Below, one piece after another: positions 19,301 through 56,394 of a stretch of DNA of 64,000 nt (the first letter of the stretch is position 1; every line of letters begins with the position of its first letter). Below the pieces are notes generated by a model that was not told the origin of the DNA, ran no database searches, and saw only the letters and a list, made by a program, of their open reading frames with translations. Source of the DNA: Liolophura sinensis (Eukaryota; Mollusca; Polyplacophora; Chitonida; Chitonidae); assembly GCF_032854445.1 (NCBI RefSeq), contig NC_088304.1, positions 28,715,732 through 28,779,731 on the forward strand. Direction: 5' to 3'. The position numbers and the translations under genes were made by a program.

Positions 19301-22300
19301 CTCCTTGGTGAGGCCAAAAGCTAAAACTGCTGCATGATGCATCTCCTTGGTGTGGCTTAAAGCTAAAACTGCGGCATGATGTATCTCCTTGGTGTGGCTT
19401 AAAGCTAAAACTGCTGCATGGTGCATCTCCTTGGTGTGGCTTAAAGCTAAAACTGCTGCATGATGCATCTCCTTGGTGAGGCTAAAAGCTAAAACTGCTG
19501 CATGATGCATCTCCTTGGTGAGGCTAAAAGCTAAAACTGCTGCATGATGCAACTCCTTTGGTAACGGATACATGATTACCATCCTGACTCAGGATCGACT
19601 CGGAATTAAAACAGCTCGTTATGTTATGTTTATTACGAACATAAATGATCTTGTAATACTTTAGTGTAACTCCAAAAAACGAAAGGCTCATTCTGACTCA
19701 ATATTTCGGCACTTTATTTTGTCATCATCAGAAGCAATCTCATTGGTTAAAACTCACTCAAGGAACAGTGAGTGCTCCTAAACCCAGGCGCATCAGAGGG
19801 AATTTGAAAGTGGTATGGCCATCGGTTGATTATCCTAGCACAAAAGGCCAGGGTCCAGGGGCCACCTAGGGCCCATAAGCTTTGGGATGCTACAGTGGAG
19901 GTTGGAGATGTCCTGAAATGGTTTTACAGGGTATTTATTCTTCACACAGATCCATCGTAGTTTTATATGCTTGACAGTCTACAGTGCATGTGGGTCTTCA
20001 TTTTGTTGGTCACCATTGATTTGGTTCGACCTTTTTTTTTTTTTTTTTTTTTTTTGACAAAAAGTGGCCATACTGCTTCCAACACCACTGTAAAACTCTA
20101 TATTTTGTGATCAGAACAGAGTGGTATCAAAGTTAGTGAGTGAGTGAGTGAGTGAGTGCGTGCTTGGGGTATAACGTCGTGCTCAACAAGGTATCAGAGT
20201 GTGCAGTGTTCAGGATATACGGGGACTCACCTTCGGGTGTTCTTTTATAAAGTCTGGTAAGAGATGGACAGTGGCTAGAAGTTGAACATAATCGTGACAC
20301 CTGTAGTAGTGGACTCTGGATAACACAGACTCCAGACTGAATGTCTGCAGGGCCTCCATTTGCTCTGAGAACAACAATAACAGTCCTGATGACACAACAA
20401 CCATAACACAGTGTGGACACCTGATAAGACAGAAACAATATCATACAGTGAGGACACCTGATAACACAGACTCCAGGTTGAATGTCTGCAGGGCCTCCAT
20501 TTGCTCTGAGAACAACAATAACAGTCCTGATGACACAACAACCATCACACAATGCAGACACCTGATAACACACACTCCAGGCTGAATGTCAGAGGGTCTC
20601 AGTCTGCTCTGAGAACAACAATAACAGTCCTGATGACACAACAACCATCACACAGTGTGGACACCTGATAACACACACTCCAGGCTGAGATCAAGAGAGA
20701 TAAATTCTTGAAAAGGGAAGTAGCTTATGTATTAATTCGGAATTTTGTGGTTGATTAATTTTCATCATACTGTTACTTCCAAATGCTTACAGCCTTGGGA
20801 AATTAGCCTGTTACTCTCCGTGAAGGGAGGTAACCTACGCATTACAAGAATATGGAATACCTCAAGCAACTGATACATGTAGATCTTCTTTGCAAGCAAT
20901 TTACATTAGGGCAGGCTCCATAGGCTTGTCTTTTGTTGTGAGATGAAGTTGTGAGAATGGTTTGACAGTGCTATTTTATAGTAGGGCGCAATCTCTTCCT
21001 AATGCTTTTCACCTTACAACATAAACAGCTGTTGGAGAAACTGGCCACCAAATTAGGCGTGAACGATTGTTTGCGTGGCAGTTACGTGGGGTGTAATTGT
21101 GCAGACGGATAAATCGGTTATGCTGATCTGCTCCCCGGAGCGTTCCTACAATTGCATCGCTTGAATTGCCTAGTGCTCAACTACGACAGCTACCAAAAAA
21201 TAGAAGTCTTCCCAGGTTATTTTAATGCTTGTTTGTTTGCAAAAAACGAGTCTTAATATGACCATGAACAAAAACCATGGAACTGCAAAGTATTCTATTG
21301 AACTTGAACCTAAAGCCATTATGCATTAATGCAGTCACCAGCTTTCTGCTCTGGCCAAATTTGAGGTCTGCGCTCTATTTAATAATCGGGTCAATGCATC
21401 CGTGCTGTCTCCTGTCATTTTGCCCTCAAGTCCAGTCAACTAACCAAATATTAACTTAGCAACCGCGTATAGGTAACTCCTGAGAAAGCTTCCGGATTAA
21501 AACAAAATATTAAAACTTTTGGCTGAGAAAATACCATTCAACTTTCAGCCACATTTTCCCCACCGTGACCATGTGCTCTACATGTCTCCTTTGCTATGTA
21601 CACAGCACGTGCTAGTTGGTGGCATTTGTGCTCTTGGTAAGCTAGCGATAGGCAGAGAAAGGTGACATTCAGTTTGAACTGGATTTAACTTTCACTAGTC
21701 AACAGCTTCCCTGAGCTGGTCATCACTGACAATCTCTCCTGTCAATGGCTATGTCATTTCACCCTGTGGATGAAACCCTTTTATCAGAGAGGGATGGTGA
21801 GGGCTCCATAAGCCAGTTGGATATTACACACACTACAAGTAGCAAACTATAGAAGTAATTATTAATCATCAGGAGAAAAAAAAAACACTCAGGAATGCAA
21901 CACATGCTGATCTGGCCTTGGAAGCCATGTGATGCTGAGTGTGTATGACAAATATGTTTTATACTGGCTTCCTGATCCACCCTGATCAGTGCTGATCACA
22001 GTTCATGCTGTGTCCCCAATGTAGCCATTGTGCTGAGGATTCCCCTGCAAATGCATGATGGCAGGCTGTACTGCACTGCAACCGACTTCACGCGCAAATT
22101 AATAGGTTTTGCCGCAGTTACAGTGAGTAAAAGAGAAAAATCTATTAAATTTCTGTAGACGACTTTCAGGTTTATGGGTGGAGGAAGCCAGTGTGCCCAA
22201 GTAAACCATGGACCTTCACCAGGTACCGAACTAACCCTTTGAAATAAAAGTGCATCTGAAACAGCGAGAGCTGGATTTGAACACGAAACTTCAATGATAA

Positions 22301-37700: not shown

Positions 37701-40700
37701 TGATAAGAAAGGGGAAGGGGACAACTGTCCACTGCCTGTCTGTTAACATTGTGTGTGATAAGAAAGGGGAAGGGGACAACTGTCCACTGCCTGTCTGTTA
37801 ACATTGTGTGTGATAAGAAAGGGGAAGGGGGACAACTGTCCACTGCCTGTCTGTTAACATTGTGTCTGATAAGAAAGGGGAAGGGGACAACTGTCCACTG
37901 CCTGTCTGTTAACATTGTGTCTGATAAGAAAGGGGAAGGGGACAACTGTCCACTGCCTGTCTGTTAACATTGTGTGTGATAAGAAAGGGGAAGGGGGACA
38001 ACTGTCCACTGCCTGTCTGTTAACATTGTGCCTGATAAGAAAGGGGAGAGGGGACAACTGTCCACTGCTTGTCTGTTAACATTGTGTGTGATAAGAAAGG
38101 GGAAGGGGACAACTGCCCACTGCCTGTCTGTTAACATTGTGTGTGATAAGAAAGGGGAAGGGGACAACTGTCCACTGCCTGTCTGTTAACATTGTGTGTG
38201 ATAAGAAAGGGGAAGGGGACAACTGTCCACTGCCTGTCTGTTAACATTGTGTGTGATAAGAAAGGGGAAGGGGACAACTGTCCACTGCCTGTCTGTTAAC
38301 ATTGTGTGTGATAAGAAAGGGGAAGGGGACAACTGTCCACTGCCTGTCTGTTAACATTGTGTGTGATAAGAAAGGGGAAGGGGACAACTGTCCACTGCCT
38401 GTCTGTTAACATTGTGTGTGACAAGAAAGGGGAAGCGGACAACTGTCCACTGCCTGTCTGTTAACATTGTGTGTGATAAGAAAGGGGAAGGGGACAACTG
38501 TCCACTGCCTGTCTGTTAACATTGTGTGTGACAAGAAAGGGGAAGCGGACAACTGTCCACTGCCTGTCTGTTAACATTGTGTGTGATAAGAAAGGGGAAG
38601 GGGACAACTGTCCACTGCCTGTCTGTTAACATTGTGTGTGATAAGAAAGGGGAAGGGGACAACTGTCCACTGCCTGTCTGTTAACATTGTGTGTGATAAG
38701 AAAGGGGAAGGGGACAACTGTCCACTGCCTGTCTGTTAACATTGTGCCTGATAAGAAAGGGGAAGGGGGACAACTGTCCACTGCCTGTCTGTTAACATTG
38801 TGTGTGATAAGAAAGGGGAAGGGGACAACTGTCCACTGCCTGTCTGTTAACATTGTGCCTGATAAGAAAGGGGAAGGGGGACAACTGTCCACTGCCTGTC
38901 TGTTAACATTGGGTGTGATAAGAAAGGGGAAGGGTGCATATTTTAGGGAAACAGTGCAGCACGTTTAAAATCCTGGGTAGAGGTATGTGTTTGGTAGTTT
39001 TACATTTTTTTTTAATATCCACTTGCATACTGAATACACACCAAATCTTTGAGGAGGTTGGATTTAGGGTCACCGAATCAGTAGGATGGTTAACAAGCGT
39101 TATTAATAGGGACGGGAGTTAGGTGTATGGGGAACCGTTGTATGGTCATGGCAGGCGATTCATGGCCAGAGTGCCATCTAATCCTGCTATATCAGGAGCT
39201 GCAAATGTTAAATAATCATAGAGTTGCCGAAAGGGTAAGCCATCATGTCACACCCACACAAAACACCTAGCATGTCTACGGTGTACCCGGGCTGAGAGTG
39301 GATGAACAGTGGCTCGATCTGTCACGACAAGAGTTTGTAACTGATGAAGGGACATGTTAAGTGCTGTGGGCAATATTGGCAGCCGAGAAATGATCATTTA
39401 TAAGGGTTTAAGTAGTAATCTCTGCTTCATTAGGGACGCATTAATGGCAAAAAATGAGAGATTGATGTATGGAGTGTGGTATGTGTGCTGTATCATCCAG
39501 GTGTGGTTTGGGATTATAAATATCTTTGAAACATGTTTTAGGAAAAGAGTAAACTGAATTGAACAGGCACCTGTTCATATAGTGTGAAATTTGAGATTAA
39601 TTTATTTATTGTATATTTGATTAGTGTTCAGTGTTGAGCCTGAGATTTTGTTTTAACTTCTACGACAGCAGTCAGGTTTATAGACAGAGGAAACTGGATA
39701 GCCCAAAATGCTATGTACATGTAAACCCTAAACCTCGCCGCATCACTTACCTGACAAACCTGATGACTATAAGCCACAGGCTATGCTATGTATATGTAAA
39801 CCCTAAACCTGCATCACTTACCTGATAAACCTTCTGACTATAAGCCACAGGCTATGCTATGTATACGTAAACCCTAAACCTGCATCACTTACCTGACAAA
39901 CCTGATGACTATAAGCCACAGGCTATGCTATGTATATGTAAACCCTAAACCTGCATCACTTACCTGATAAACCTTCTGACCATAAGCCACAGGCTATGCT
40001 ATGTATATGTAAACCCTAAACCTGCATCACTTACCTGATAAACCTTCTGACTATAAGCCACAGGCTATGCTATGTATACGTAAACCCTAAACCTGCATCA
40101 CTTACCTGATAAACCTGATGACTATAAGCCACAGGCTATGCTATGTATACGTAAACCCTAAACCTGCATCACTTACCTGACAAACCTGATGACTATAAGC
40201 CACAGGCTATGCTATGTATATGTAAACCCTAAACCTGCATCACTTACCTGACAAACCGGATGACTATAAGCCACAGGCTATGCTATGTATACGTAAACCT
40301 GCATCACTTACCTGACAAACCTGATGACTATAAGCCACAGGCTATGCTATGTATATGTAAACCCTAAACCTGCATCACTTACCTGATAAACCTTCTGACT
40401 ATAAGCCACAGGCTATGCTATGTATACGTAAACCCTAAACCTGCATCACTTACCTGACAAACCTGATGACTATAAGCCACAGGCTATGCTATGTATATGT
40501 AAACCCTAAACCTGCATCACTTACCTGATAAACCTTCTGACTATAAGCCACAGGCTATGCTATGTATATGTAAACCCTAAACCTGCATCACTTACCTGAT
40601 AAACCTTCTGACTATAAGCCACAGGCTATGCTATGTATATGGAAACCCTAAACCTGCATCACTTACCTGACAAACCTGATGACTATAAGCCACAGGCTAT

Positions 40701-43700
40701 GCTATGTATATGTAAACCCTAAACCTGCATCACTTACCTGACAAACCTTCTGACCATAAGCCACAGGCTATGCTATGTATATGTAAACCCTAAACCTGCA
40801 TCACTTACCTGACAAACCTTCTGACCATAAGCCACAGGCTATGCTATGTATATGTAAACCCTAAACCTGCATCACTTACCTGATAAACCTTCTGACTATA
40901 AGCCACAGGCTATGCTATGTATACGTAAACCCTAAACCTGCATCACTTACCTGATAAACCTGATGACTATAAGCCACAGGCTATGCTATGTATATGTAAA
41001 CCCTAAACCTGCATCACTTACCTGATAAACCTTCTGACTATAAGCCACAGGCTATGCTATGTATATGTAAACCCTAAACCTGCATCACTTACCTGACAAA
41101 CCTGATGACTATAAGCCACAGGCTATGCTATGTATATGTAAACCCTAAACCTGCATCACTTACCTGATAAACCTTCTGACTATAAGCCACAGGCTATGCT
41201 ATGTATATGTAAACCCTAAACCTGCATCACTTACCTGATAAACCTTCTGACTATAAGCCACAGGCTATGCTATGTATATGTAAACCCTAAACCTGCATCA
41301 CTTACCTGACAAACCTTCTGACCATAAGCCACAGGCTATGCTATGTATATGTAAACCCTAAACCTGCATCACTTACCTGATAAACCTTCTGACTATAAGC
41401 CACAGGCTATGCTATGTATACGTAAACCCTAAACCTGCATCACTTACCTGATAAACCTGATGACTATAAGCCACAGGCTATGCTATGTATATGTAAACCC
41501 TAAACCTGCATCACTTACCTGATAAACCTTCTGACTATAAGCCACAGGCTATGCTATGTATATGTAAACCCTAAACCTGCATCACTTACCTGACAAACCT
41601 GATGACTATAAGCCACAGGCTATGCTATGTATATGTAAACCCTAAACCTGCATCACTTACCTGATAAACCTTCTGACTATAAGCCACAGGCTATGCTATG
41701 TATATGTAAACCCTAAACCTGCATCACTTACCTGATAAACCTTCTGACTATAAGCCACAGGCTATGCTATGTATATGTAAACCCTAAACCTGCATCACTT
41801 ACCTGACAAACCTGATGACTATAAGCCACAGGCTATGCTATGTATACATAAACCCTAAACCTGCATCATTTACCTGACAAACCTGATGACTATAAGCCAC
41901 AGGCTGTGCTATGTATATGTAAACCCTAATCCAGCTAAAGAGCTGTTTTTAAGAAAAAGAAGGATTTTCAAAGTGTCTATTAAATCTTTGACCAGAATTT
42001 ACCAAAACTAATCATTTTACTAATGTGAGTCAGCTAGTACAAAACAGTTTTAATGGAAAAGATTCTTTTCCGTGCATACCCGTAGCTTTCTGTGTTAGCC
42101 CTTTTTGTGTGTATATGTGTGTGGACAACATTTTCACTACTTTATTACAAATTCCAAAATTACTCAAGTACCTGTTGAAATTTGTGAGGTGTTTTTGATG
42201 ACTCAGCTGTGAGATGTGGATCATGAAGCCCGTTTAAGGCAATATTTCTATCATTAAGCTTGGTTTGTTCTTATCTGTTATTTTAGTTCTTAATTGTGTT
42301 ACAGTAACTTACCCACAATTTATGTTGTCAAGCAATATCTTAGAGTTAAGTGTGAGATAGCTTCGTGACCCCGGGCAAGGCCCCAACATCACCATTCTGT
42401 CTTAGAGTTAAGTGTGAGATAGCTTCGTGATCCCGGGCAAGGCCCCAACATCACCAATCTGTCTTAGAGTTAGGTGTGAGATAGCTTCGTGATCCTGGGC
42501 AAGGCCCCAACATCACCAATCTGTCTTAGAGTTAAGTGTGAGATAGCTTCGTGATCCTGGGCAAGGCCCCAACATCACCAATCTGTCTTAGAGTTAAGTG
42601 TGAGATACATGTAGCTTCATGATCCCAGGGCAAGGCCTCAACATCACCAATCTGTCTTAGAGTTAAGTGTGAGATAGCTTCGTGATCCCGGGGCAAGGCC
42701 CCAACATCACCAATCTGTCTTAGAGTTAAGTGTGAGATAGCTTCATGATCCCAGGGCATGGCCCCAACATCACCAATCTGTCTTAGAGTTAAGTGTGAGA
42801 TAGCTTCGTGACATCGGGCAAGGCCCCAACATCACCATTCTGTCTTAGAGTTAAGTGTGAGATAGCTTCGTGATCCTGGGCAAGGCCCCAACAATACCAA
42901 TCTGTCTTAGAGTTAAGTGTGAGATAGCTTTGTGATCCCGGGCAAGGCCCCAACATCACCAATCTGTCTTAGAGTTAAGTGTGAGATAGCTTCGTGATCC
43001 CGGGCAAGGCCCCAACATCACCAATCTGTCTTAGAGTTAAGTGTGAGATAGCTTCGTGATCCTGGGCAAGGCCCCAACATCACCAATCTGTCTTAGAGTT
43101 AAGTGTGAGATAGCTTCATGATCCCAGGACAAGGCCTCAACATCACCAATCTGTCTTAGAGTTAAGTGTGAAATAGCTTCATGATCCCAGGGCAAGGCCT
43201 CAACATCACCAAGCTGTCTTAGACTTAAGTGTGAGATAGCTTCGTGATCCCAGGGCAAGGCCTCAACATCACCAAGCTGTCTTAGACTTAAGTGTGAGAT
43301 AGCTTCATGATCCCAGGGCAAGGCCTCAACATCACCAAGCTGTCTTAGACTTAAGTGTGAGATAGCTTCATGATCCCAGGGCAAGGCCCCAACATCACCA
43401 GTCTGTCTTAGAGTTAAGTGTGAGATACATGTAGCTTCATGATCCCAGGGCAAGGCCTCAACATCACCAAGCTGTCTTAGACTTAAGTGTGAGATAGGTT
43501 TATGATCCTGGGTCAAGGCCTCAACATCACCAAGGTGTCTTAGACTTAAGTCAGACTCAGTTTTTACTTGTGATATTACTCTTTAACATAGATTTGAGCA
43601 TGAATGGCTCTGACAACTCTCAGTATTAAATCAAAAAGCCGTGAAAGTGGGTCACAATTTTAGCATAGTAAGTCTGAATGAAGTCTACAACAGCTTTGTG

Positions 43701-46700
43701 TTATAGTAAATTAACCATCTACCTTCTAAACATGATTGACTGCTTCCTGGTGGTTCCTGGCCTAGCCTATTATAGTTTGATTTAGACGTCAGTGAGGTTG
43801 TGATGCAGGCCATCCATATGCCTTCCGGCCTGTCTAGGGCTTTGAAGGGTGCTTGTATGAGACTGGACAAGTCATCCTCTCAGTTTGCCTCCAGGTATGT
43901 GTGTGCTGTCAGGGTTGTTAAGTGATAAGTGGAAAGCTGTTTGTCCCTGGACACTGTCAATGCCCAGTCTCCGCCTATAACCCCAGCCACAGAGCCAATT
44001 AATAAGTCCTTGGCAAAAATGTGACTGTCCCTGTTGTATGAAGTTTCCACCAATGCTGCATGCACTGTGTGGTTCTACATTGCACATTTGAAGGTTATTT
44101 CAAATGTTTTATTGTCCACGCGATTCTGTGTATCTTATTGTCGTGATGACCCTGTAAACCAAATTTATTTGAATCTGCTCGGATTCTTGTAAAAGACACC
44201 TATTTTAACTCACTTTGGTTTTCGTTTTTTGAATAATAAAGCACACATTGTTTTCCACTGTCAAATACAAAAAAACACACATTGTTTTCCACTGTCAAAT
44301 ACAAACTCCCCATGTCTGTTTGCTGTGTGTCAAAACCATTGCCTTTGGTCAACTGCTTTGCTGCAGTAGCTTTGCACAATTGTGATTCTGGTGGATTCAG
44401 GTTATGAAATTCCACAGGAATCCATTTAGATTCTGGTAAAAAAAACATGACAAAAATAAATGCCTGTGAATGTATAGTAACGCTAGGCCAATAGAAGAAA
44501 ATAGTTGGAGTGCTTTAGGGCTAACATTTCATTTGTATGCCGATTTGAAGTCACACTGATCATAAAGTTTTGTGCACATGTACGTGTATGTATTTGCTTA
44601 TCGCATACATGTAAATGTACATGTCATATGTACTTGTATCAAGAATTTTCATGGTTTGAAAGGCAGCTTAAATTACATGTGGTTAAGTGTTTATATATTC
44701 TGTAACTCTTCAACCTTTTCGCAGATTTGCAAGGTTTTTAATTAAGCATATTCTGAAGTCCTTATTCTCTGTAGACACTTGGCATGAAGGCCTGTAATCA
44801 ATTAACTCAACCAATATAGTTTTGTCTCTAAAATCAAATTAAGAGTGTGCATAAATTGCACTGAAAGTTGCTCTTTGATATGAGAAAATGCTGAGGAATG
44901 AGTTTACAACAGAACTATTTTAACAAAGTATGTTGACAGGCATGCTGGTGTCTTAGAGATTCAGAATGACGTCATCAGGAATCTGCTGAATGAGCAAACT
45001 ACCTCCTCGTGCTCGCCTCTTTATTGAAAACCCAGTTAACTGTAACATTGATAAACCTGTGGTGTCCTCAACCTGAAGTAGTCTCACTATTAATAGTGTA
45101 TATTAGTGTATGAAGTTTGTATCCTGTTAAACAGACGTAATTGTCATTCTACACACGTGTACATGTAAATAGTATCAAGGCTAAAAATACAGGTATGTTT
45201 TTGACAAAAACCCATCCAGGTTTATTTCAAATCATTGTTCATGACACATCTTAGGGGCTTTTATGGCCCACAACTTGAAACAGATAGATGTATACTGCTT
45301 ATAAAGCCTGTTAGTTGTGTGTGAGTGAAATACATGTAGTAGTAATAATGAAGTCGAGGCATGACGACGTAAATGTAACAGATTGGTGCACTTATTATTA
45401 TTATTATTATACATGTAGTTTAATGGCCTTTTTAAACACGTAAACATGACTTTGACATGTACTTGTTAAAACACGTAATATGGCTGAAAAAAGTAAAATG
45501 GTCAGAACACAGCAAGAATTCTTTCACTCATTATTACTTTCTAAATGTACATATATTATTGTGATGTCAGGTGTTATGTTTGGTCCTAAATCTACATGTA
45601 TATATTATTGTGATGTCGGGGGCCTCCGTGGCTCAGTTGGTTAGCGCGCTATCACAGCGTTATGACCTAGGAGCCTCTCACCAATGCGGTCGCTGTGAGT
45701 TCAAGTCCAGCTCATGCTGGCTTCCTCTCCGGCCGTACATGGGAAGGCCTGCGAGCAACCTGCGGATGGTCATGGGTTTCCCCCGGGCTCTGCCCTTTTT
45801 CCTCCCACCATAATGCTGGCCACCGTTGTATAAGGGAAATATTCTTGAGTACGGCATAAAACACCAATCAACTAAATAAATAAATAAATATTGTGATGTC
45901 AGGTGTTATGTTTGGTCCTAAATGTACATATATTATTGTGATGTCAGGTATTATGTTCCGTCATTCATTCATTATTAGAGCTCAAAATAAAAACAACAAT
46001 CTCAAATTGAACAAAGGTCATCTAGTGGAGACCGGTTGGGTGGCCTAATGGTTAGAGTGTCTGCCTTGAAGTTGAGAGACCTGGGATCAAACCCAGGCTG
46101 GGTCATACCAAACACCTTGAAAATGGTACATGAACATGTTGCTTCCTTGCTTGGCACTCATCATTGAGATGTTAGTGCAAGAAAACAGGACTTGTTGGCC
46201 CGGTGTCAGTATAATGTGAGACTGGGTGGGGTGTCATGTTTGGTGTCTGAGGAATGATGCTCCAGTGGTGGCAGCACTTTAGCGGCTCTGCCACAAGTAT
46301 ATGTACACATAGTTAATGACTCCTCCTCATCATGTAACTGGAAAAATTGATTTAAAAACCCAAGGCAAATAGTATATATACATCATAAAGATTGCTTTGT
46401 ATCATGCAAATATTCAAAATGTTAGACACATAATTGATTGTATGTTGTATTTTATCAACATGTTGTTTTATTGACGTAAATGAAATCTAATAGATTTCAC
46501 ACCGTTATGTACATCACATTCGGGTACATCACATTGGTGTACTGCAATTTTTGTTCTTGTCGTCACTGTGAAGAGGTCAAAATACGTAACATTTTGACCC
46601 TTGCAAAAACAATACAAAATTGCTTCGCGCATTTATATTTGTGTTGAGTACACTCATAGATATGTGTTTGTACGTGTTTGTTAGTTGAGGACGGTCTATG

Positions 46701-49700
46701 GGGGTATTCATACAATGTTGTGTTAACTGCACTGCAACGACGACAGCTGCAATATATCAGGCGCAGGTGAATCTCATTATGTGCCCTATGGGCCGACAGC
46801 TAATTGCGTAACACACCTACGTATAATATACAGGTATATGTCAATGTCTCTGCTTCAAGCAGCGTGCAGGCACATGGTTACTATCATGTCAGGTGTACAT
46901 GTAATGGCCATGGACATGCCTTGATGCAGAGGCCTAATTGCAACTTCTACATGTAGTTTCTGTCTGTGTAATTAGCTTCAGAAACATATGCAGAAGTAAA
47001 AATAGCTAAGACACAGCTACTTACCAGGTCCACTGGATTTAGTGTATATGTTTATACTGACCCCTTCCCCCTGATGTGGAAGGATATTTTGAAACATTCT
47101 TTGAGAACCATAAGGTGTAGGCGAAATAATTTGCATAGTTTTATGAAAGTCATTTTTTGCATCATTTTCAGAATAATTGTGTGCATAAATTTCATTGAAG
47201 AAAGTGCATTAGAAGTCGAAATAGTTGAAGATTTACAGCATATACCGGGACAAAATTAAATCATTTCCATGTAATACGCCTTCTTCGATACAATAAATGT
47301 ATTTTTGTCAAAGCTCAGCAACTGACCCTGCCGCATGAATAAAACATTAATGTCCTCAGTCACTGAATCACACTCATACAGACTGAATGGTATGGGTTGG
47401 GCATCATGAATCTGTCCATTTTTCTTTAGGCCTATAACTCAGCACATGCACGTCCACATGTAACCTTGGTAACAGATTTGACCAAGAATGAGACTTTGGA
47501 ATATAATGTCCCATTGTCTAAAGTATTACAAGTGTGATTATAGGGTTTACATATGTTCTTCAGAAATTTCAGAATCTTCTAACATGTTTGTCATTGTAAT
47601 GTTGTGATTTTAACTTATTTATTTATATATTTAATTAGAAAAAAAAAGAACTTTGAAATCCAATATCCTTAAAATTTTAATGTGATTTCTCATGTACATA
47701 CATTCTGGACCATTGTACAATTACCAGTCAAAATTTTAGAATGTGTTGGTCAGCTGGAATTGAGGCTAACACATTTTGCAACCTTAGTTAAATCCATATT
47801 CACACCAGCAAAAGATACATGTGCGTGTACTGCTGGATAAATATTCACAGTTCCTCTCCCTTGCCGAGTTCCATACTACATGTATATATGTGTTTGGTGG
47901 GGTGTGGTGATGGCCATGATTTGACTTGAATATTTGTTATATTTCCAGTAAATGTCCGAGTGTGTTGGCGACTGCCATAGCCCCGCTGTGCATGTGATGA
48001 CCTACTACAGGTGGACCTCACAGAGCTTTATGAGGAAGGAGAGAGCTTTGACACTCAGGATGGCGACCTACAAGAACAGAAACGAGTGCCACGTAAGCCC
48101 TGGAAAAATATGTCTCCTTGCATTTCAGTAATAATATAAAATGTAACAGGGTGCTATATAAATACTATCTACCTGCGGGCTGGAGGGAATTTCCCGTTAG
48201 ACTAGTGTAGAACCCAGAAATCACTGGATCAAAACCTCAGCTGGTAATCCATGGTATTCTGTGAACCATTTTCAGCTTATGATGACAACGGAAAATGTCA
48301 ATATTAAGGCCTAAATATGCTAGTTCAATAGAGACTGGTTCCAAAACACAGACATGTTGTGTGCATGAGCCACTGCACTGCCGATATGAGTCTAAAGTGA
48401 AAACATTTCAATTTCATTTAGCATCTATGTTTATAAATGTATACATCCTAAAGGACCTAAAATTTCGTCCACAAAAATGCATTTTTAAAGGTATATAAAT
48501 GTCACAAAATAATATTTTTGGTGCTGGAACTTAAAATTTTCCAGTACAAGATCACCCATGTTCCAAACAAACCTCAGAACAAACCTTTCTATAAACATAA
48601 ATAGGATTCTGAGAATCAGTGGAAAAATGGACAAGTTAGTCCAGGACCAAATTTGTTGTCATTTAAGGTACATAAGATAGTGTTTGAGAAATTTGTGTTG
48701 CAAGCATATGAAATAATGTTTCAGTTTTGATTGACCAATGGTATGTAAATGTAGGCCTTTGTGTTGACAGAGATTGAGTGTCACCGTCTTGCCAAGGCCG
48801 CGTTTGAAAGGCTGTACAGTGTGTGCGAGCGCTGGAATCGCGAATTGCCGGATATCCCCATGCCAGAGAGGATGTACGAGGTCTATGCACATGCCATCAA
48901 GAACACGCGGCGCAAGATGGAGGACCGCCATATCATCTTACACGATCTGAACAGTCTCTTCAAACTCAAGGTCAGCATCTCAAGGTCATAGTTTGTGTTG
49001 TTATAAGCTAGACATGCCAGAGGTTGCGCTCTTCATATACACTACATGGGTAAATGTTTAATACATATTCATTTGTACTGGGAATACTCTTCAGTATTGA
49101 ATTCACTGAAATCAAATATTTAAAAAAAATAATGACTACCCTGATTCTTCAACCTTTTCAACCGGCCCGGATAGCACAGTTGTTAGAGCGTCCGCTTCGG
49201 GACCGGTAGATCCAGGATCAATCCTTGATCGAGTCACACCTAAGACTTTAAAAGAGGAAGTTGTAACTTCCTCGCTTGGCGTTCAGGATGAAGGGGATAG
49301 TGCAACGACTGGTTGACCCGTATCAGTATAATGGCTCGGGCGGGGTGGCTTACTTGCCTTCGGTAAGTCGTCTCAGTGAAGCAGCACTAAATAAAAAGAG
49401 CGGTGGAAATCCGTCCTGCATCAAGGAGGCACATTACACGTACATGCACCCTAATGATTCCTTCGTCGTCATATGACTGAAAATTGTTGAGTACGACGTT
49501 AAACCCCAAGCACTCACTCACTCACTCACTCAACCTTTTCAACCACCTCTGCGACCCATATATTGAAACATACTAAGAGAACTATGAGATAAAGATAAAT
49601 AATTTGGACAATTTTATAAAGCTTCCTTATTTTAGTGACAGGCAAATCATTTTAAGTGTCATTTTCACAACTGTATGCATAAATTCCACTAAAAAGTTCT

Positions 49701-52700
49701 TTAGAGGTCAAAAATGGAATCCATCTCTCAACAGCAACAGACTTAAGTCAGGAGGTTTAGGAGACACCCAGCAATCAGCCATGTTTTACTCTGATGACTC
49801 TGTCACTGTACATGCACATATTCTCGCGTGTGCTTAAACTCCAGTCAGAAAATTAAACAAATACTTTCCATCATGAATGGTAACCCTTGAAGGCGCCCCT
49901 GTTTGGGACAAGAGTCCATTTACGCTCTCTACAGCTACCTATATTGGAGTTGTTTTCTTGCTGTTTTGTGGGTTTAACAAGCTCATCTGCTACTAAATAT
50001 GAAAATAGAAAAAAAAGAATAGAAAGCATTATTGTCATAAGTTTTAATGTTCATATTCACTTGCATGTGAGTGGATCTTGAGAAATGCAGATTGAACTAA
50101 CAGAGGCCCCACAGGTTCTTTTGTGTTCAGAATGGGGTTGTTTCCCAGGGTTTGCATCCAGTCAGTCGTACTTTGCCGTGTCTGATGGTCACATGCTCCC
50201 GTGTTCAAATCTCCTGTTGTTTCTCTAGGGTTTCCCCCCAGTCAGTTGTACTATTCTATGCATGATGGTCACACGCTCCTGTGTTCAAATCTCCTGTTGT
50301 TTCTCCAGGGTTTCCCTCAGTCATTTGTACCATGTCATGTATGATGGTCACAAGCTCCTGTGTTCAAATCTCCTGTTGTTCCTCCAGGGTTTCCCCAGTC
50401 AGTTGTACTATGCCATGTCTGATGGTCATACATTTCTTTGTTCAGATCTCCTGTTGTTTCTCCAGGGTTTCCCCAGTCAGTTGTACTATGCCATGTATGA
50501 TGGTCACATGTTCCTGTGTTCAAATCTCCTGTTGTTTCTCCGGGGTTTCCCCAGTCAGTTGTACTATGCCGTGTATGATGGTCACATGCTCATGTGTTCT
50601 AATCTGTTGTTTCTCCAGGGTTTCCCCCAGTCAGCTGTACTATGCCATGTATGATGGTCACATGTTCCTGTGTTCAAATCTCCTGTTGTTTCTCCAGGGT
50701 TTCCCCAGTCAGTCGTACTATGCCGTATATGATGGCCATGGAGGGGTGGAGGCAGCCGTTTACACTGCCAGTCATCTCCACTGTCACATGGTCCACAATC
50801 CCCAGTTTGACGGGGATGTGAACACAGCAATAAAGGAGGCCTATCGCAACACAGACAATAACTTCATTGAGAAGGCACAAAGGGAGGTAAGTCTGGCTGA
50901 CAGCATATACATGTATGTATTTTTTTTTTCTAAAAATTAATATTAACACTGATTTGTGATATTTTGTTTAGAATGGTTTAAGGGCAAAGACTATCTGGGG
51001 TGTGCTTCTACCTACACAGGTGCTACAGATCAGTGTTTTCTTGTAATATGAATATGCTGAAATTATTTTTCTTGGACATTGTCTTAGCCACGTAATCAAC
51101 TGAGTTGCAAGAGTGATGGGTGAGCAGTTCTTCAGTCATTGTGGTGACACTTCATATTTTCATTGTTCGCAAGTTGTGGAACTTTGCCCTGAAAAAGGAC
51201 TAGTGGAGGAAACCATTTTGATTGAATCTGAGAACTTTATTGATTTTTTTATTTATTTATTTGATTGGTGTTTTATGTTGTACTCAAGAATATTTCACTT
51301 ATACGATGGCGACAAGCATTATGGTGGGAGGAAACCGGGCAGAGCCAGGGGGAAACCCACGACCATCCGTAGGTTGCTGCAGACCTTCCCACATACGGCC
51401 GGAGAGGAAGCCAGCATGAGCTGGACTTGAACTCACAGCGGCCGCATTGGTGAAAGGCTCCTGGGTCATTACGCTGCGCTATCGCACTAACCAAACATCA
51501 TCAGTGGTTGGTTGGTCGCTGCAAAGAAGTATCTCATCAAGTGCAGCAGATGAACCTCTTAGCGGTGTTAACGCTATGAGTTCAAGTGCAGCTCATGCTG
51601 GCGTCATCTCCGGTCGTAGTTGGGAAGGTCAGTCAGCAGGCTGTGACTGGTTGTGGATTTCCCCTGGGCTCTGCTCATTTTTCTTCCATTCTAACGCTGG
51701 CGGGCATCGTATAAGTGAAACATTTTGAAATACGGCGTACAATTGTAATCAAATAAATAAATCAATCAATCAGTCTACACATGTTATCTTGTTACTGCTG
51801 TCAGGGATTGCGGAGTGGAACTACCTGTGTGACAGCTTTAATTCGGGGTCAGATGTTACACCTGGCCTGGCTGGGGGACTCCCAGGCTGTCCTGGTGAAG
51901 GATGGCCAGGTACATGATGTGATGAACCCCCATAAACCAGAGAGAGAGGTAAGAGTAACTGTCTATATATTACTTCAGGTCTAGTTGCCATAACTTAGTA
52001 CGACACAGTTGCTTGAAGTTATCCATGTGTGAAGGATATATATAGAGAGGACGTACAATGAGTGACCTATTATATCAGTTTTATTAAACGAATGGTGTAA
52101 TTTTCATTTGTTTCAATACTCTGGCTAGGAACAAAGGAAAATTATGTCACGAGTTTAAATATATTTAAACCACATAGTTTATTTTGAAGGGATTTAGGTG
52201 GTTGATAAGATTTATTTATTTGATTGGTGTTTTATGCTGTACTGAAGAATATTTCACTTGTATGACAGAGGCCAGCATTATGGCGGGAGAAAACCGGGCA
52301 TAGCCCAGGGAAAACCCACAACTATCTGCAGGTTGCTGGCAGAACTTCCCATGTTGTTGATAAGAGAAGACATCATGCATTGACTTGCAAGGTGCGAGGA
52401 GCGGTGATTATGGGATAAATGGGTTTAAACCGTTGTCATGAAATTTTAATACTTCACACTCAGGCTTTAAGACTCTATGTCCATTTACCCTTCTCAACAC
52501 ACAGGCAATTATTTTGTTGTGAAGTCAAGACATGCAGCCAGTGCCAATGTACAGGTGTAGTGGAATGTCGCGTCACATTGAAAAGTGATGCTAGCTGAAC
52601 GTGCTTGTGCCTGTGCAGTAATTTTGCTGTATGAATTATATACTGCCCCTCCCCCCAATGTGATTTATATACACCCACCCCTATTACCTCTCATCCCCCA

Positions 52701-55700
52701 GTGTGAGTTATGTATACCAACCCTGGTACCTACCTTCCCCAATGTGATTTATTTACACTCACCCCTACCACCTCTCCATCCCCAGTGTGAGTCATTTACA
52801 CCTACCCCTACTACCTACCCATCCCCAGTGTAGTTTATATACACCCACCCCTTCTACTTACTCATCCCCGTTGTGATTTATATACACCCAGCCCTACTAC
52901 CTCTCCATCCCCATTGTGAGTTATGTGTACCACCCCTACTACCTACCCATCCCCAATGTGATTTATATACACCCACCCCTACTACCTCTCCATCCCCATT
53001 GTGAGTTATTTACACCCACCCCTACTACCTACCCATCCCCAGTGTGGTTTATATACACCCTCCCCTTCTACTTACCCATCCCTATTGTGATTTATATACA
53101 CCCACCCCTACCACCTATTCATCCCCAATGTGATTAATGTACACCCACCCCTACTACCTCTCCATCTCCATTGTGAGTTATGTATACCACCCCTACTACC
53201 TACCCGTCCCCAATGGGATTTATATACACCCACCCCTACTACCTCTCCATCCCCATTGTGAGTTATGTATACCACCCCTACTACCTACCCATCCCCAATT
53301 TGATTTATGTACACCCACCCCTACTACCTCTCTATCCCCAGTGTGAGTTATTTACACCCACCCCTACTACCTCTCCATCCCCAGTGTGAGTTATTTACAC
53401 CCACCCCTACCACCTCTCCATCCCCAGTGTGAGTTATTTACACTCACCCCTACCACCTCTCCATCCCCAATGTGTTTTATATACACCCACCCCTTCTACC
53501 TACCCACCCCCTATGTGATTTACGTACACCCACCCCTACTACCTCCCTATCCCCAGTGTGAGTTATATACACCCACCCCTACTACCTACCCATCCCCAGT
53601 GTGAGTTATTTACACCCACCCCTACCACCTCTCCATCCCCAGTGTGAGTTATTTACACTCACCCCTACCACCTCTCCATCCCCAGTGTGTTTTATATACA
53701 CCCACCCCTTCTACCTACCCACCCCCTATGTGATTTACGTACACCCACCCCTACTACCTCCCTATCCCCAGTGTGAGTTATATACACCCACCCCTACTAC
53801 CTACCCATCCCCAATGTGATTTATGTACACCTACCCCTACTACCTACCCATCCCCAATGGGATTTATGTACACCCACCCATACTACCTACCCATCCCCAG
53901 TGTGATTTATATACACCCACCCCTACTACCTACCCATCCCCAGTGTGATTTATATACACCTACACCATTATATACTACCCATCCCCAATGTGATCCCCAA
54001 GTATATATCGACATTTTAACTCATGAAATGAAGTCAAGGGCAGTCAAGAATCAGAGACACGTGTCAAAGTTAGCACGTCTGCATGTTGAAATTTGTTCAG
54101 GGTAAGTGGTATTAACTGTCGTGATTTGTATTCATTGTACACATGTACATCGCTGGCATGTTGAGCACTTATAGCCTGGCTGCCCTGCTCTCAGTGTTGA
54201 TAGGGCCTTGGTAACAGTATATCATATATAGGGATAATAATCCTTGCTTTTGATTCTATTTGTGCCTTTAAGGATGAGAAGAAAAGGATAGAAGACCTTG
54301 GAGGCGTCGTTGTCTGGTTTGGAACATGGAGGGTCAACGGAAACATCGCCGTTTCAAGAGCAATAGGTAAATACATAACACAGCAGAAGTCTTCTGTTAG
54401 ATATATGTAATCGGTTATGCATGTACAAGTGAGATCCCAATTTTGTGTGTGACCGATTTTGATCTCGAGGTTCTGCAGCAAGAAAATGGTGTGAGTCTGA
54501 AAACGCAGATCTCCTTCTAACCCCTTGGCCATCTTGTATTATTCCACGTGGAAAGTCATTTGCATCACGAAAAAAAAAAATGTGCAGATACAACTGAAAT
54601 GTGTTGATAATTCTGAAATCATCCCTTTGGAAAAGTGCTAAGACTTACAGTATGTTAAAATTATATAAAATTTGCCCATGGTTAGTAGGGTACTTTTCAA
54701 AAATATCACTATTTTCATGTTTGTAGATAGGCTTTTCTGGTTTTTAAAGTCGGTTGATTATTATAAAGCAGCTTTCATTGGATTCCTATGTGACCTTTTG
54801 ATAAAAATCCAATTGTTAACCATGACTCCCATAAACCAAAGCTGGTTCCTGGAAAGTTACAAAGATATTTTTTTAAACATCCAGATGTTTTCAAATGTCC
54901 AATGCCTAAGTGCCATACCTCCTTTGGGCACCTTAGAATTTCACACCATTAAAGTTAATTACATGGAATGCCAAAAAGTTAGTTATTTTTATTTACTTAT
55001 TTATTTATTTATTTGATTGGTGTCATACTCAAGAATATTATTGCTTATACAATGGTGTCCAGCATTATGGTGCTAAGAAACAGGATAAAATGCATAGGAA
55101 AACCCATGACCATCTGCAGGTTGCCGGAAGAAAAGTTAGTTGTAAGTAAAAAAAGCATTTCCCCCCAAAGTCATGTAGTGTGTTTGTCTGCTGTACAGGT
55201 GACATTGAGCACAAGCCCTACATCTCAGCGGTACCTGACATTTTGAGCGTAGAACTGGATGGCACAGAAGATTACCTGATTCTAGGCTGTGATGGTGTCT
55301 GGGACACACTACCCAAGGAGGAACTACCTGAGATCATGTACACATACTTGCAGGAGTGCGACGGTGACCGCACCATGGTTGCCCAGCGCCTCGTCAGTAT
55401 AGCCCGCGACAATGGCTCCACGGATAATATCTCTGTTGTTATCGTCTTCTTCAAGGATGACATTTCAGAGCCCAAGCCAACGAGATCCACCATTGAAGAG
55501 GCCAAGAGATCTGATATGGATGCGAAAGGCAAGGGAGATAACTGTGAAGGAAAGGAAAATTCTGATGGAGATTTGTCTCCCCTTGGCACATCAGGCGGTC
55601 TAGGGTCCTGTGATAATAATGCAGGGTCAGTAAAGAAATGCAACGGTGTCACATCTGATAAACAAAACAGCAGCCGAAAGTCACGACGTGATGGAAGCTG

Positions 55701-56394
55701 CAACGCAAACAGCAGACAGAAAAAGAATTCCACAAAAAATGGGTTAAAGGCAAAGAAGAAGCGAACCACAACATCAACAACAACGACATCAACTAAGGAT
55801 GCAGGCAAAGATAATTTCATGGAAACTGGCAAGAAACCGCTACGGTCCAGTTCCCAAATAAACACAGATTCCAGAAAGTCAAGGTCTAAGTCATGCACAT
55901 CCAGAAACAAAAAAGTCAAGAACAAAACAGATAGTAAAGAAACTGTTTGGGCTTTTACGGGTAAGTGTCAAACACGTGTACAAAACCACAGGCTAAATCA
56001 TAGAGCACAGGCCCCAGCACGATTAACTCAGGCCAGCATCGGTCCAGCAAACTCGTACATGAGCAAGGAATGGCTGTCCAAGACAATGACGCGAATCCTT
56101 GAGAAAAGGCAACATGGCGGAAAGCAAACCCAGCCAGAAGCAAATCGAACAGAGGAGCCACAGCATGAAACGCTGATCCCATGGTACGCCCAGCGAGAAG
56201 ACGAACTGTCCGACGAAGAGGACGGAGTATTAGTAGATGAGACCTTGTACGGGAATCAGAGCACGTTGTACCAGACCAAAGGGAGGTCACTCTTGATGAC
56301 GTCTGGCCTCAAACATCAGCAGGGGAGTATGAATCCTAGCACATCGACAACCCTTGGCAGTACCAGAGCAACACCACTCTGTGGCTCTAGATAA
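28531..56394 (+). CDS. PPM1E: PPM1E/PPM1F-type (POPX) PP2C phosphatase; 7 exons, frameshift in exon 2
   Basis: Exons 28531-28715, 47949-48092, 48771-48970, 50698-50886, 51805-51948, 54273-54366 and 55199-56394. All phases agree, to 716 codons plus stop, if one base is dropped from the CCCC run at 47981-47984. PPM1E/POPX1 and PPM1F/POPX2 are Mg/Mn-dependent Ser/Thr phosphatases that counter PAK and CaMK kinases. Seen (corrected numbering): [15 protein letters not shown] near 48-62, as in PPM1E; RRKMED 156-161; YDGHGG with D188; SGTT 243-246; GDS with D264; SRAIGD 315-320; CDGVWD with D350; TDN with D394. All PP2C metal-binding acidic positions are present. The tail (about 405-716) is Lys/Ser/Thr-rich, with a basic stretch around 500-520, and is PPM1E-like in length. 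Choice between PPM1E and PPM1F is uncertain; invertebrates often have one co-orthologue. Confidence 0.88.
32377..32541 (+). mobile_element. SINE family A, 3' half
   Basis: Starts inside the body (CCGGCCGTACGTTGGAAGG), runs through CCACCATAATGATG and TATTCTTGAGTACGGCGTAA to a TAAATAAATAAATA tail. Confidence 0.8.
33313..33535. mobile_element. MITE-like element
   Basis: Left end CTCTAATTCCTCAACCTTTT; right end AAAAGGTTGAAGAATTACAG, inverted. About 220 bases, no coding capacity. Inside: TAATTTATGCACATTTATAA. Confidence 0.65.
33790..34712. repeat. Irregular CAYACATYCAGACAT-type array
   Basis: About 0.9 kb of interleaved hexamer-like units (ACACATCC, AGACATTC, ACACATTC). The strand is almost free of G apart from CAGACA, giving strong strand asymmetry. 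All three plus frames are open for long distances (up to 360 codons) as His/Thr/Ser/Ile-rich text; not treated as genes. Confidence 0.93.
34937..35166. mobile_element. MITE-like element, most complete copy
   Basis: Ends GTTACTGTAAATCTTCAACC and GGTTGAAAACGTTGAAGAAT...GGGTAAC form a roughly 30-bp terminal inverted repeat with few mismatches. Length 230 bases. Confidence 0.75.
36247..36600 (+). mobile_element. SINE family C
   Basis: tRNA-like head GGTGGCCTAATGGTTAGAGC with GGATCAAACCAGG as B-box-like part; body GTCAGCATAATGTGATTGGG; 3' part CTTCGTCATCAGATGAC and TGATGAGTACAACAT. It shares body and 3' part with family B. Confidence 0.8.
37085..38935. repeat. 55-bp minisatellite, about 33 units
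   Basis: Unit contains GACAACTGTCCACTGCCTGT and CTGTTAACATTGTGTGTGAT. The first units are degenerate and the central ones nearly identical (about 38100-38400). Some units carry one extra G (56 bases). Contains the palindrome GTTAAC in every unit. Confidence 0.96.
39655..39740. mobile_element. SINE-like fragment that leads into the 71-bp array
   Basis: CAGTCAGGTTTATAGACAGA and GGAAACTGGATAGCCC match the body of the element at 22150-22330. The sequence continues without a break into the first unit of the array that follows. Confidence 0.5.
39695..41930. repeat. 71-bp minisatellite, 31 units, with higher-order structure
   Basis: Unit contains AAACCCTAAACCTGCATCAC and ATAAGCCACAGGCTATGCTA. Variants differ in GATAAACCTTCTGAC versus GACAAACCTGATGAC, CTATAAG versus CCATAAG and TATATGT versus TATACGT. 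A block of seven units (497 bases) starting near 40797 repeats near 41294 with the same order of variants. One unit near 40290 lacks CCCTAAA. Confidence 0.96.
42340..43550. repeat. 62-bp minisatellite, about 19 units
   Basis: Unit contains TTAGAGTTAAGTGTGAGATA and GGCAAGGCCCCAACATCACC. Variants: GATCCCGGG/GATCCTGGG/GATCCCAGGG, and an inserted CATGTA in at least two units. Begins 410 bases after the 71-bp array and is unrelated to it. Confidence 0.96.
43685..44448 (-). other. Unrecognised protein-like open stretches inside intron 1
   Basis: On the minus strand, one frame from about 44065 reads through [20 protein letters not shown] and [20 protein letters not shown], meets a single TGA, and stays open as [20 protein letters not shown] to 43685. 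Another open stretch (44448-44200) precedes it. The residue mix looks more protein-like than chance, but I cannot name a family. It may be a decayed gene or element fragment. Confidence 0.25.
44697..44907. mobile_element. MITE-like element
   Basis: Left end CTGTAACTCTTCAACCTTTT; right end GCTGAGGAATGAGTTTACA. The inside (GTGTGCATAAATTGCACTGA, AGTTTTGTCTCTAAAATCAA) closely matches the copy at 61101-61264. Confidence 0.6.
45619..45889 (+). mobile_element. SINE family A, full length, with target duplication
   Basis: Head GGGCCTCCGTGGCTCAGTTG, B-box-like GAGTTCAAGTCCAGC, body GGTTTCCCCCGGGCTCTGCC and CACCATAATGCTGGCC, and an AAATAAATAAATA tail. Flanked on both sides by TATTGTGATGTC, a clear target-site duplication. 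Best reference copy of the family here. Confidence 0.92.
46031..46370 (+). mobile_element. SINE family C
   Basis: Head GGTGGCCTAATGGTTAGAGT, then GGATCAAACCCAGGCTGGGT, body GTCAGTATAATGTGAGACTG and a 3' part CTCCTCATCATGTAACTGG. Same family as 36247-36600. Confidence 0.82.
47084..47240. mobile_element. MITE-like element, one end missing
   Basis: Internal text (AATAATTTGCATAGTTTTAT, GTGTGCATAAATTTCATTGA) and the right end AGTTGAAGATTTACAGC match the family; the left inverted end is absent. Confidence 0.5.
47949..48092 (+). CDS. PPM1E: PP2C phosphatase exon 2, with a one-base frameshift
   Basis: From TTTCCAG|TAAATG to CCAC|GTAAGC. The first part reads [12 protein letters not shown], matching YNCPSFLAAALA of PPM1E, then hits TGA TGA. 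From the next frame it reads [20 protein letters not shown], matching RATSDEVLQSDLS. One extra C in the run at 47981-47984 explains both, and the exon then ends in the phase needed by exon 3. Confidence 0.8.
48771..48970 (+). CDS. PPM1E: PP2C phosphatase exon 3
   Basis: From TTGACAG|AGATTG to CAAG|GTCAGC. It encodes [20 protein letters not shown], then [15 protein letters not shown], the first PP2C motif, through FKLK. Phase 1 in, 0 out. Confidence 0.92.
49137..49725. mobile_element. MITE-like element split by a SINE
   Basis: Left end CCCTGATTCTTCAACCTTTT at 49139-49158, then SINE family B, then the MITE inside resumes at 49530 (CCACCTCTGCGACCCATATA, TTTTATAAAGCTTCCTTATT). The right end is not clear. 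Confidence 0.65.
49164..49529 (+). mobile_element. SINE family B, full length, nested in the MITE
   Basis: Head GGCCCGGATAGCACAGTTGT, GATCCAGGATCAATCC, body GACCCGTATCAGTATAATGG, 3' part CCTTCGTCGTCATATGACTG and GTACGACGTTAAACCCCAAG, and a (CACT)n tail. Flanked by the 15-base duplication TCAACCTTTTCAACC (49149-49163 and 49530-49544). Confidence 0.92.
50125..50697 (+). repeat. 78-bp tandem copies of the phosphatase exon 4 acceptor region
   Basis: About seven copies in front of the real exon. Each has TTTCTCCAG|GGTTTCCCCAG, 42 exon-like bases ([14 protein letters not shown]) and 36 intron-like bases (TGTTCAAATCTCCTGTTG). Acceptor variants: CTAG near 50228, CCGG near 50541. The copies end after the DGH of the PP2C DGHGG motif. 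Confidence 0.93.
50698..50886 (+). CDS. PPM1E: PP2C phosphatase exon 4
   Basis: Sixty-three whole codons from TCTCCAG|GGTTTC to GGGAG|GTAAGT. It encodes [20 protein letters not shown], then [15 protein letters not shown], with the DGHGG metal site. Confidence 0.93.
51245..51496 (-). mobile_element. SINE family A, reverse, left arm of an inverted pair
   Basis: TTTATTTATTTGATTGGTGT tail, CATTATGGTGGGAGGAAACC body, and a GGTCATTACGCTGCGCTA head end; the last head bases are missing. Directly faces the next element. Confidence 0.87.
51500..51772 (+). mobile_element. Divergent SINE family A, right arm of an inverted pair
   Basis: Contains GAGTTCAAGTGCAGCTCATG, TTTCCCCTGGGCTCTGC, CTGGCGGGCATCGTATAAGT and a CAAATAAATAAATCAATC tail. 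Ends 32 bases before phosphatase exon 5. Confidence 0.75.
51805..51948 (+). CDS. PPM1E: PP2C phosphatase exon 5
   Basis: Forty-eight whole codons from CTGTCAG|GGATTG to GAGAG|GTAAGA. It encodes [48 protein letters not shown]. Confidence 0.93.
52205..52358 (-). mobile_element. SINE family A, 3' part, reverse
   Basis: TTTATTTATTTGATTGGTGT, GAAGAATATTTCACTTGTAT, CCAGCATTATGGCGGGAGAA, then ends at the body. Confidence 0.8.
52640..54000. repeat. 43-bp pyrimidine-rich minisatellite, about 31 units
   Basis: Unit contains TACACCCACCCCTACTACCT and CCCATCCCCAGTGTGATTTA. It fills most of phosphatase intron 5 and ends 272 bases before exon 6. The unit pairs a C/T-rich run with CAG, so each unit looks like a 3' splice site. 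Two alternating types (CTACCCATCC/ATTTATATA and CTCTCCATCC/AGTTATTTA) are mixed, with a long duplicated block around 53386-53600 and 53601-53820. Confidence 0.95.
54273..54366 (+). CDS. PPM1E: PP2C phosphatase exon 6
   Basis: From CTTTAAG|GATGAG to AATAG|GTAAAT. It encodes [20 protein letters not shown] and [11 protein letters not shown]. Phase 0 in, 1 out. Confidence 0.92.
54990..55137 (-). mobile_element. SINE family A, 3' part, reverse
   Basis: TTATTTATTTATTTGATTGG, CATACTCAAGAATATTATTG, CCAGCATTATGGTG, then ends. It lies 61 bases before phosphatase exon 7. Confidence 0.75.
55199..56394 (+). CDS. PPM1E: PP2C phosphatase exon 7 (terminal)
   Basis: From TGTACAG|GTGACA to the TAA at 56392-56394. 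It encodes the last motifs ([21 protein letters not shown]), then a Ser/Lys/Thr-rich tail and an acidic patch ([11 protein letters not shown]). A consensus donor ACGG|GTAAGT lies inside it at 55960/55961, so a shorter spliced form is possible. Confidence 0.9.

Follow-up and report, generated by a model that had tools for sequence, protein, structure and literature searches.

Introduction

Several splice acceptors in a row are familiar from NAGNAG tandem acceptors, in which the alternative AGs lie three bases apart. Tandem arrays have also been connected with intron origin: human introns are said, in work by Zhuo et al. in 2007, to derive from them. For human genes that lie in segmental duplications, PMC2812944 (Genome Biol 2009) describes minisatellites on exon-intron boundaries, which can alter splicing; 27 such intron modifications are reported there after manual inspection. 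Earlier work on how the spliceosome chooses among equal sites used test constructs with duplicated sites, as well as alternative sites that occur in pairs. The available text of PMC9225289 gives exon- and intron-centric proximity rules and cites the duplicated splice sites of Reed and Maniatis. It states that introns longer than 250 nt favour the sites closest across the exon, and that the usual upstream preference of competing 3′ sites is reduced, not reversed, with long introns.

Here we describe a locus in a stretch of the chiton Liolophura sinensis (the window; 64,000 nucleotides of contig NC_088304.1) that an earlier note had read as an acceptor-bearing minisatellite next to a genuine phosphatase exon. 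TRF and a match to PF00481 bore out both parts of this description. The array is not of the NAGNAG kind, since its AGs lie 75–80 nt and not three bases apart. Given this spacing and a pyrimidine tract in each unit, the copies would compete at first recognition and not, as NAGNAG sites do, at the second step. As in repeats of the PMC2812944 type, the boundary lies within the unit: each unit has an AG (in copy 6 a remnant) and about 42 exonic nt.

Methods

The assembly that was searched with the array query comprised 609,464,459 bases in 632 contigs. For the survey of exon-edge arrays, the listing held 286 family matches (PP2C, 23; myosin, 81; kinesin, 132; TCP-1, 50), of which we examined 230 (PP2C, 14; myosin, 57; kinesin, 119; TCP-1, 40). 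They were sampled in batches of 30 myosin-exon loci, 120 kinesin, TCP-1 and myosin regions, and 80 kinesin, PP2C and myosin regions. The sample excludes most rows with two or more internal stops (L025 and L050 were kept despite such stops), the four PP2C rows that come from the window, matches that were long or had no intron, and the bottom rows of some lists. The larger sample was prompted by one array among the first 30 loci (L020); another array there (L028) was recognised later, and the remaining 200 stretches gave 14 arrays. Junctions were placed by a simple home-made score, and by eye for the doubtful L028, L087, L037, L135, L192 and L210. In the later 200 stretches the flank was 300 nt, and copy numbers are lower bounds where arrays reach the end of the stretch. 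Since the search for the sampled arrays started out from exons, it already presupposes in part that the functional site is the one nearest the exon.

For the anchoring test, 215 donor and 214 acceptor junctions (of 230 each) were callable. The number of arrays expected under even density was estimated crudely: we took the array density over the first 200 nt and assumed, as rough values, that arrays reach 70 nt into the exon at donors and 50 nt at acceptors.

Results

The phosphatase gene lies on the plus strand. Its exon 3 (48771–48970; placed by reading frame and homology) ends with LFKLK and the donor GTCAGC. Exon 4 (50698–50886) stands behind acceptor 8, whose AG is at 50696–50697, matched PF00481 with E=7.5e-08 and is followed by the donor GTAAGT at 50887. 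The introns on its two sides measure 1,727 and 918 nt. Exons 5 (51805–51948), 6 (54273–54366) and 7 (55199–56394; the end of the domain and a long C-terminal tail) were placed by family match and spliced model. When exons 3 to 7 were joined via acceptor 8, an open product of 606 residues was obtained (the model starts at exon 3, without exons 1 and 2). Its first 307 residues covered positions 3–255 of the 255 in PF00481 (E=2.8e-66), so that it belongs to the PP2C (PPM) family. The model aligned with solved phosphatases across the junction; against PPM1A, a five-residue gap fell just before the junction. Among the PDB matches, PPM1A was the highest (122 bits), and the CaM-kinase phosphatase 4jnd reached 110.8 bits. 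The subgroup may be PPM1E/PPM1F (POPX/CaMKP), judging from PPM1F sequence. The exon 4 protein had six matches in the assembly: the exon itself (E=3.4e-39), array copies 5 and 6 (E>1) and, weakly, three places elsewhere (E 0.09–0.8). Neither this query nor the array DNA query found a second copy of the phosphatase gene in the assembly.

A minisatellite of eight copies spans the boundary of intron 3 and exon 4 (50117–50739, plus strand). TRF placed its core at 50137–50735 (score 857, period 78, 7.7 copies); the degenerate outer ends were set by eye. In the unit, the last 36 nt or so of the intron, with a pyrimidine tract and the AG, are followed by roughly 42 nt from the start of the exon. Its first exonic base falls at 50149, 50229, 50309, 50388, 50466, 50544, 50619 and 50698 in copies 1 to 8, with spacings of 80, 80, 79, 78, 78, 75 and 79 nt. 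The tandem repeat of acceptor and exon start that the earlier note had seen in front of exon 4, with a 78-base unit and 42 exonic bases, was thereby confirmed at a spacing of 75–80 nt and with the exon copy as the eighth. The AG is present in seven of the eight copies, including that of the exon. Copy 6 (50544–50618, 75 nt before the next copy) is indeed, as had been claimed, a copy without AG: its acceptor has become GG and reads CCGG. The outermost copy 1 (50149–50228) keeps its AG and is the most diverged, with 24 of 77 positions unlike the exon copy. All of copies 2 to 5 (50229–50543; starts at 50229, 50309, 50388 and 50466) keep the AG. Copy 7 (50619–50697) is the last upstream copy and ends, in its 3′ half, with the polypyrimidine tract and AG in front of the real exon 4. 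It carries the frame-shifting extra C that had been noted; this C exists, but in copy 7 and not in the exon copy. Copies 2 to 8 are 86–95% identical, with 4–11 pairwise differences in 74–78 positions. A 364-base array query against the whole 609-Mb assembly gave two overlapping matches here and no other locus, in a search that skips very common words. A dispersed or mobile source of the unit was dropped, as the query matched a single place.

The copies had been expected to be mostly readable in frame. This holds for copies 4, 5 and 6, which continue the frame of exon 3 with GFPSQLYYA(M/V)(S/Y)DGH (exon 4 itself reads SQSYYAV). Copy 2 is open, though in another frame, and copies 1, 3 and 7 soon reach a stop. 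In the phase of exon 3 the stops are at 50263 (from copy 1 in phase 0), 50342 (copy 3) and 50652, in copy 7 (from copies 2, 4, 5, 6 and 7), so that none of the seven upstream frames remains open as far as exon 4. The stop at 50652 also ends a chance open frame of 141 codons across copies 2 to 7 (50229–50651, plus strand). Such a frame is the kind of product expected from arrays with units divisible by three; the 42-bp array of the window, described below, gives another.

We built spliced models with each of the eight acceptors. Exon 4 is 189 nt long with acceptor 8, 268 nt with that of copy 7 and 343–738 nt with the others. The models with the seven upstream acceptors ended after 77–207 residues, counted from exon 3, and only acceptor 8 gave the full phosphatase product. 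The product of acceptor 4, the single upstream model that was profile-searched, was without a Pfam match at 0.001. A frameshift had been named as the price of a wrong choice of site, and the stops behind the upstream start points agree with this. An insertion of 26-residue repeats had been named as the other outcome, and here the models speak against the note: as all seven upstream starts hit a stop, a lone upstream acceptor cannot put such repeats into a working enzyme.

Comparison of copies 2 to 7 with the exon copy covered 459 positions, of which 49 (10.7%) differed. Neutral decay at this divergence predicts 1.2 lost AGs among the six copies, and one was observed. Since a single lost AG is what neutrality predicts, the claim that the upstream copies are being silenced is unsupported; moreover, copies 2 to 7 hold five intact acceptors, and four of these (acceptors 2, 3, 4 and 5) differ from acceptor 8 at 0–1 of 25 bases. 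Copy 7 differs at 8 of 25, most of these differences being due to a 3-base deletion that puts the alignment out of step. That acceptors 2 to 5 are nearly the same as acceptor 8 makes a selection of the site by strength alone unlikely. In the exonic halves of copies 1 to 7, differences from the exon were found at 10 of 98 first, 11 of 98 second and 17 of 91 third codon positions. Codon positions 1 and 2 are not spared. The higher value at third positions might stem from changes within the exon copy. We dropped a coding role for the copies in view of the stops, of differences at every codon position, and of unit lengths that are divisible by three in only 7 of 17 arrays (that of the window and 16 sampled ones).

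The array is also no singular oddity: tandem arrays across an exon edge were found at 16 of the 230 exon matches that were sampled in the genome from myosin, kinesin, TCP-1 and PP2C genes (7%; 95% interval, 4–11%). Twelve were on the donor side (L020, L028, L047, L063, L087, L090, L097, L105, L107, L144, L206 and L231) and four on the acceptor side (L037, L135, L192 and L210). The units of L135, L192 and L210 hold only about 7–15 exonic bases, and those of two of the four acceptor arrays 7–10. At the donor of a myosin exon (L020, 56–1514; C12:685229-688414), a 66-bp unit is repeated about eight times and TCAG/GTATG occurs eight times; next to it, about 38 units of 25 bp form an array in which TCAG/GTATG recurs ten times. 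The array of L107 has a 109-bp unit with ACAAG/GTGAGT at least 3.7 times at 98% identity, and in L144 the unit is 124 bp long and occurs at least 3.5 times with 97% identity; such high unit identity points to recent or ongoing growth. TTTGTAG/G occurs ten times in the 32-bp array of L135, and in L037, too, one upstream copy has lost its AG.

At a kinesin locus (L047, 405–768, with L190, 1–697; C11:27412683-27415130), the end of the exon and its donor are repeated in a 73-bp array. About 1.7 kb beyond the L047 array, a partial second copy of the exon lies within a similar array (L190), a higher-order duplication. L190 shares the contig and the array family of L047 and was not counted separately. 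L058, L140, L026, L045, L085 and L200 were rejected as junction-spanning, the array being only near the edge or the junction uncertain, and L184, with 2–3 copies at 73%, was doubtful and not counted.

Arrays are common near exons in general: among the first 150 exon matches, 49 lie within 300 nt of one (unit of at least 12 nt). In the anchoring test, array ends fell inside the exon at 13 donors and 5 acceptors (L190 is in both counts; two of the donor ends and four of the acceptor ends were placed by eye). Into the intron, the counts at donors and acceptors were 9 and 12 within 0–100 nt, 7 and 6 within 101–200 nt, and 4 and 2 within 201–300 nt. With the rough reach values chosen, the 12 donor arrays were in mild excess over the 5.6 expected (P ~0.012), and the 4 acceptor arrays, against 4.5 expected with equally rough values, showed no excess. 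The 12:4 split between donors and acceptors is not significant alone (two-sided binomial, 0.077); among the first 150 matches it was 10:2 (0.039).

The window holds further repeats. At 39708–41929 a 71-bp unit occurs about 31 times, with TCAG/GTAAGTG 30 times on the minus strand, possibly an orphan donor array. It was dropped as a second exon-edge case in the window, as no exon was seen by eye at either end. A 42-bp unit repeated 33 times at 18181–19558 creates an open frame of 463 codons on the minus strand (18200–19588); the minus-strand exons upstream of it, judged by eye, may belong to RAD51C. The plus-strand exons at 4774–12108, which by eye resemble CFAP119/CCDC189, have between them a 21-bp array of about 90 units (7387–9292). 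An apparently dispersed SINE-like element (TTTATTTATTTATTTGATTGG...) was recognised by eye at 1–273, 45600–45900 and 51240–51490, and at 1–273 a 57-bp part similar to the element occurs in tandem copies.

Discussion

We propose that the minisatellite in this PPM-type phosphatase gene arose and expanded by tandem duplication of a segment across the boundary of intron 3 and exon 4. The last copy alone is continuous with the complete exon and the donor behind it. As this is the sole copy so linked, the spliceosome is proposed to take acceptor 8 by exon definition. The seven upstream copies would be near-identical intronic decoys that are removed with the intron and undergo neutral decay. If just one of them were used, a premature stop would follow, and the protein would be protected while the exon-proximal site wins. 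The locus is one of a frequent class in the chiton genome, in which tandem arrays are seeded across exon edges, at donors as well as acceptors. We give this account as a whole (boundary-spanning minisatellite, acceptor 8 used by exon definition, neutral decoys, one of a frequent class) a probability of roughly 0.8. We infer from the models and the gene structure that RNA is spliced at acceptor 8 and that this is due to exon definition, which would seem the best available reason for acceptor 8 to win. The flanking introns of 1,727 and 918 nt are within the range above 250 nt given in the available text of PMC9225289.

In the same text the upstream preference of 3′ sites is only reduced, so that some leak to copy 7, with its 268-nt exon, is to be expected. 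Were upstream acceptors used at a meaningful level, the array could be a brake that is tuned by copy number via nonsense-mediated decay. Such a brake would draw on six upstream acceptors with AG, four of which differ from the real acceptor in no more than one of 25 bases, on the stop that follows every upstream choice, and on the general lean of 3′ site choice to the upstream side (available text of PMC9225289). We nevertheless regard it as unlikely, because there is no sign of selection keeping the sites: the AG was lost in one of the six copies 2 to 7, as drift predicts. The opposite kind of selection, silencing the upstream acceptors while slips would insert 26-residue repeats, was the reading of the earlier note. 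It could account for the one lost AG and the one frameshifting extra C, but against the 1.2 losses of AG expected neutrally among six copies the one seen needs no selection, and no upstream acceptor is open through the exon. It is thus very improbable.

The copies might also have been invented or multiplied in assembly, and the HiFi depth of 14x given in the available part of PMC11068029 is modest. However, the mean HiFi read in the same source is 8,347 bp, so that the array of 0.6 kb lies well inside a read of average length. Copies 2 to 8 also differ from one another (4–11 of 74–78 positions), and like arrays recur in unrelated genes, which makes an artefact extremely unlikely. Hardly more credible is a series of tandem mini-exons, each unit having its own acceptor and a cryptic donor, that makes repeat-bearing isoforms. 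GTATGAT, a weak donor-like string, occurs in copies 3, 5, 6 and 7, but in units of just 75–80 nt it would leave an internal intron of about 50 nt, and copies 1, 3 and 7 have stops in the phase of exon 3.

The boundary-spanning minisatellite with neutral decoys therefore remains our preferred reading of this locus. For the class, a plain account is that chance seeding, together with tolerance if the exon-proximal copy keeps working, explains most exon-edge arrays. A more far-reaching idea, possible but doubtful, is that minisatellites arise preferentially at exon edges or are tolerated there, that thousands of exons carry series of near-identical sites, that the arrays are a selective sieve for exon-definition splicing, and that some set output via copy-number-dependent decay of mis-spliced RNA. 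Under such a sieve, donor arrays (12) would outnumber acceptor arrays (4) because the exon-proximal donor wins easily and upstream acceptor copies compete. If about 7% of exons carry site series, RNA-seq could measure the choice rule at donors and acceptors over many spacings and copy numbers. RNA-seq is listed for five tissues in the available part of the assembly paper PMC11068029, and the data for testing this rule thus already exist. If true, these findings would also mean a route by which introns grow outward from the exon edge, and a load of frameshift-prone loci.

We found no report of frequent splice-site minisatellites in a mollusc in the literature searched, which covered few subscription papers. 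Within the scope of these searches, what appears to be new is how often they occur in conserved genes of a single animal, and that they offer natural series of near-identical competing sites. In the human introns of Zhuo et al. (2007), tandem copies reportedly supply the splice sites, as they do in the chiton array. The chiton array, however, appears to lengthen an existing intron and not to found a new one, the phosphatase frame being unchanged. The duplicated sites of Reed and Maniatis and the rules in the available text of PMC9225289 share with the chiton arrays the competition between sites and a choice that depends on position, but they concern competing pairs, whereas the naturally occurring chiton series run from about two sites to ten or more, all nearly identical. 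Minisatellite units on exon-intron boundaries are common to the chiton and to the human repeats of PMC2812944. In the available part of that paper the human repeats were sought among recent paralogues and tied to the formation of novel introns. The chiton arrays, in contrast, lie in conserved mollusc gene families, were found at 16 of 230 sampled exon matches, and have as their coding copy the one nearest the exon.
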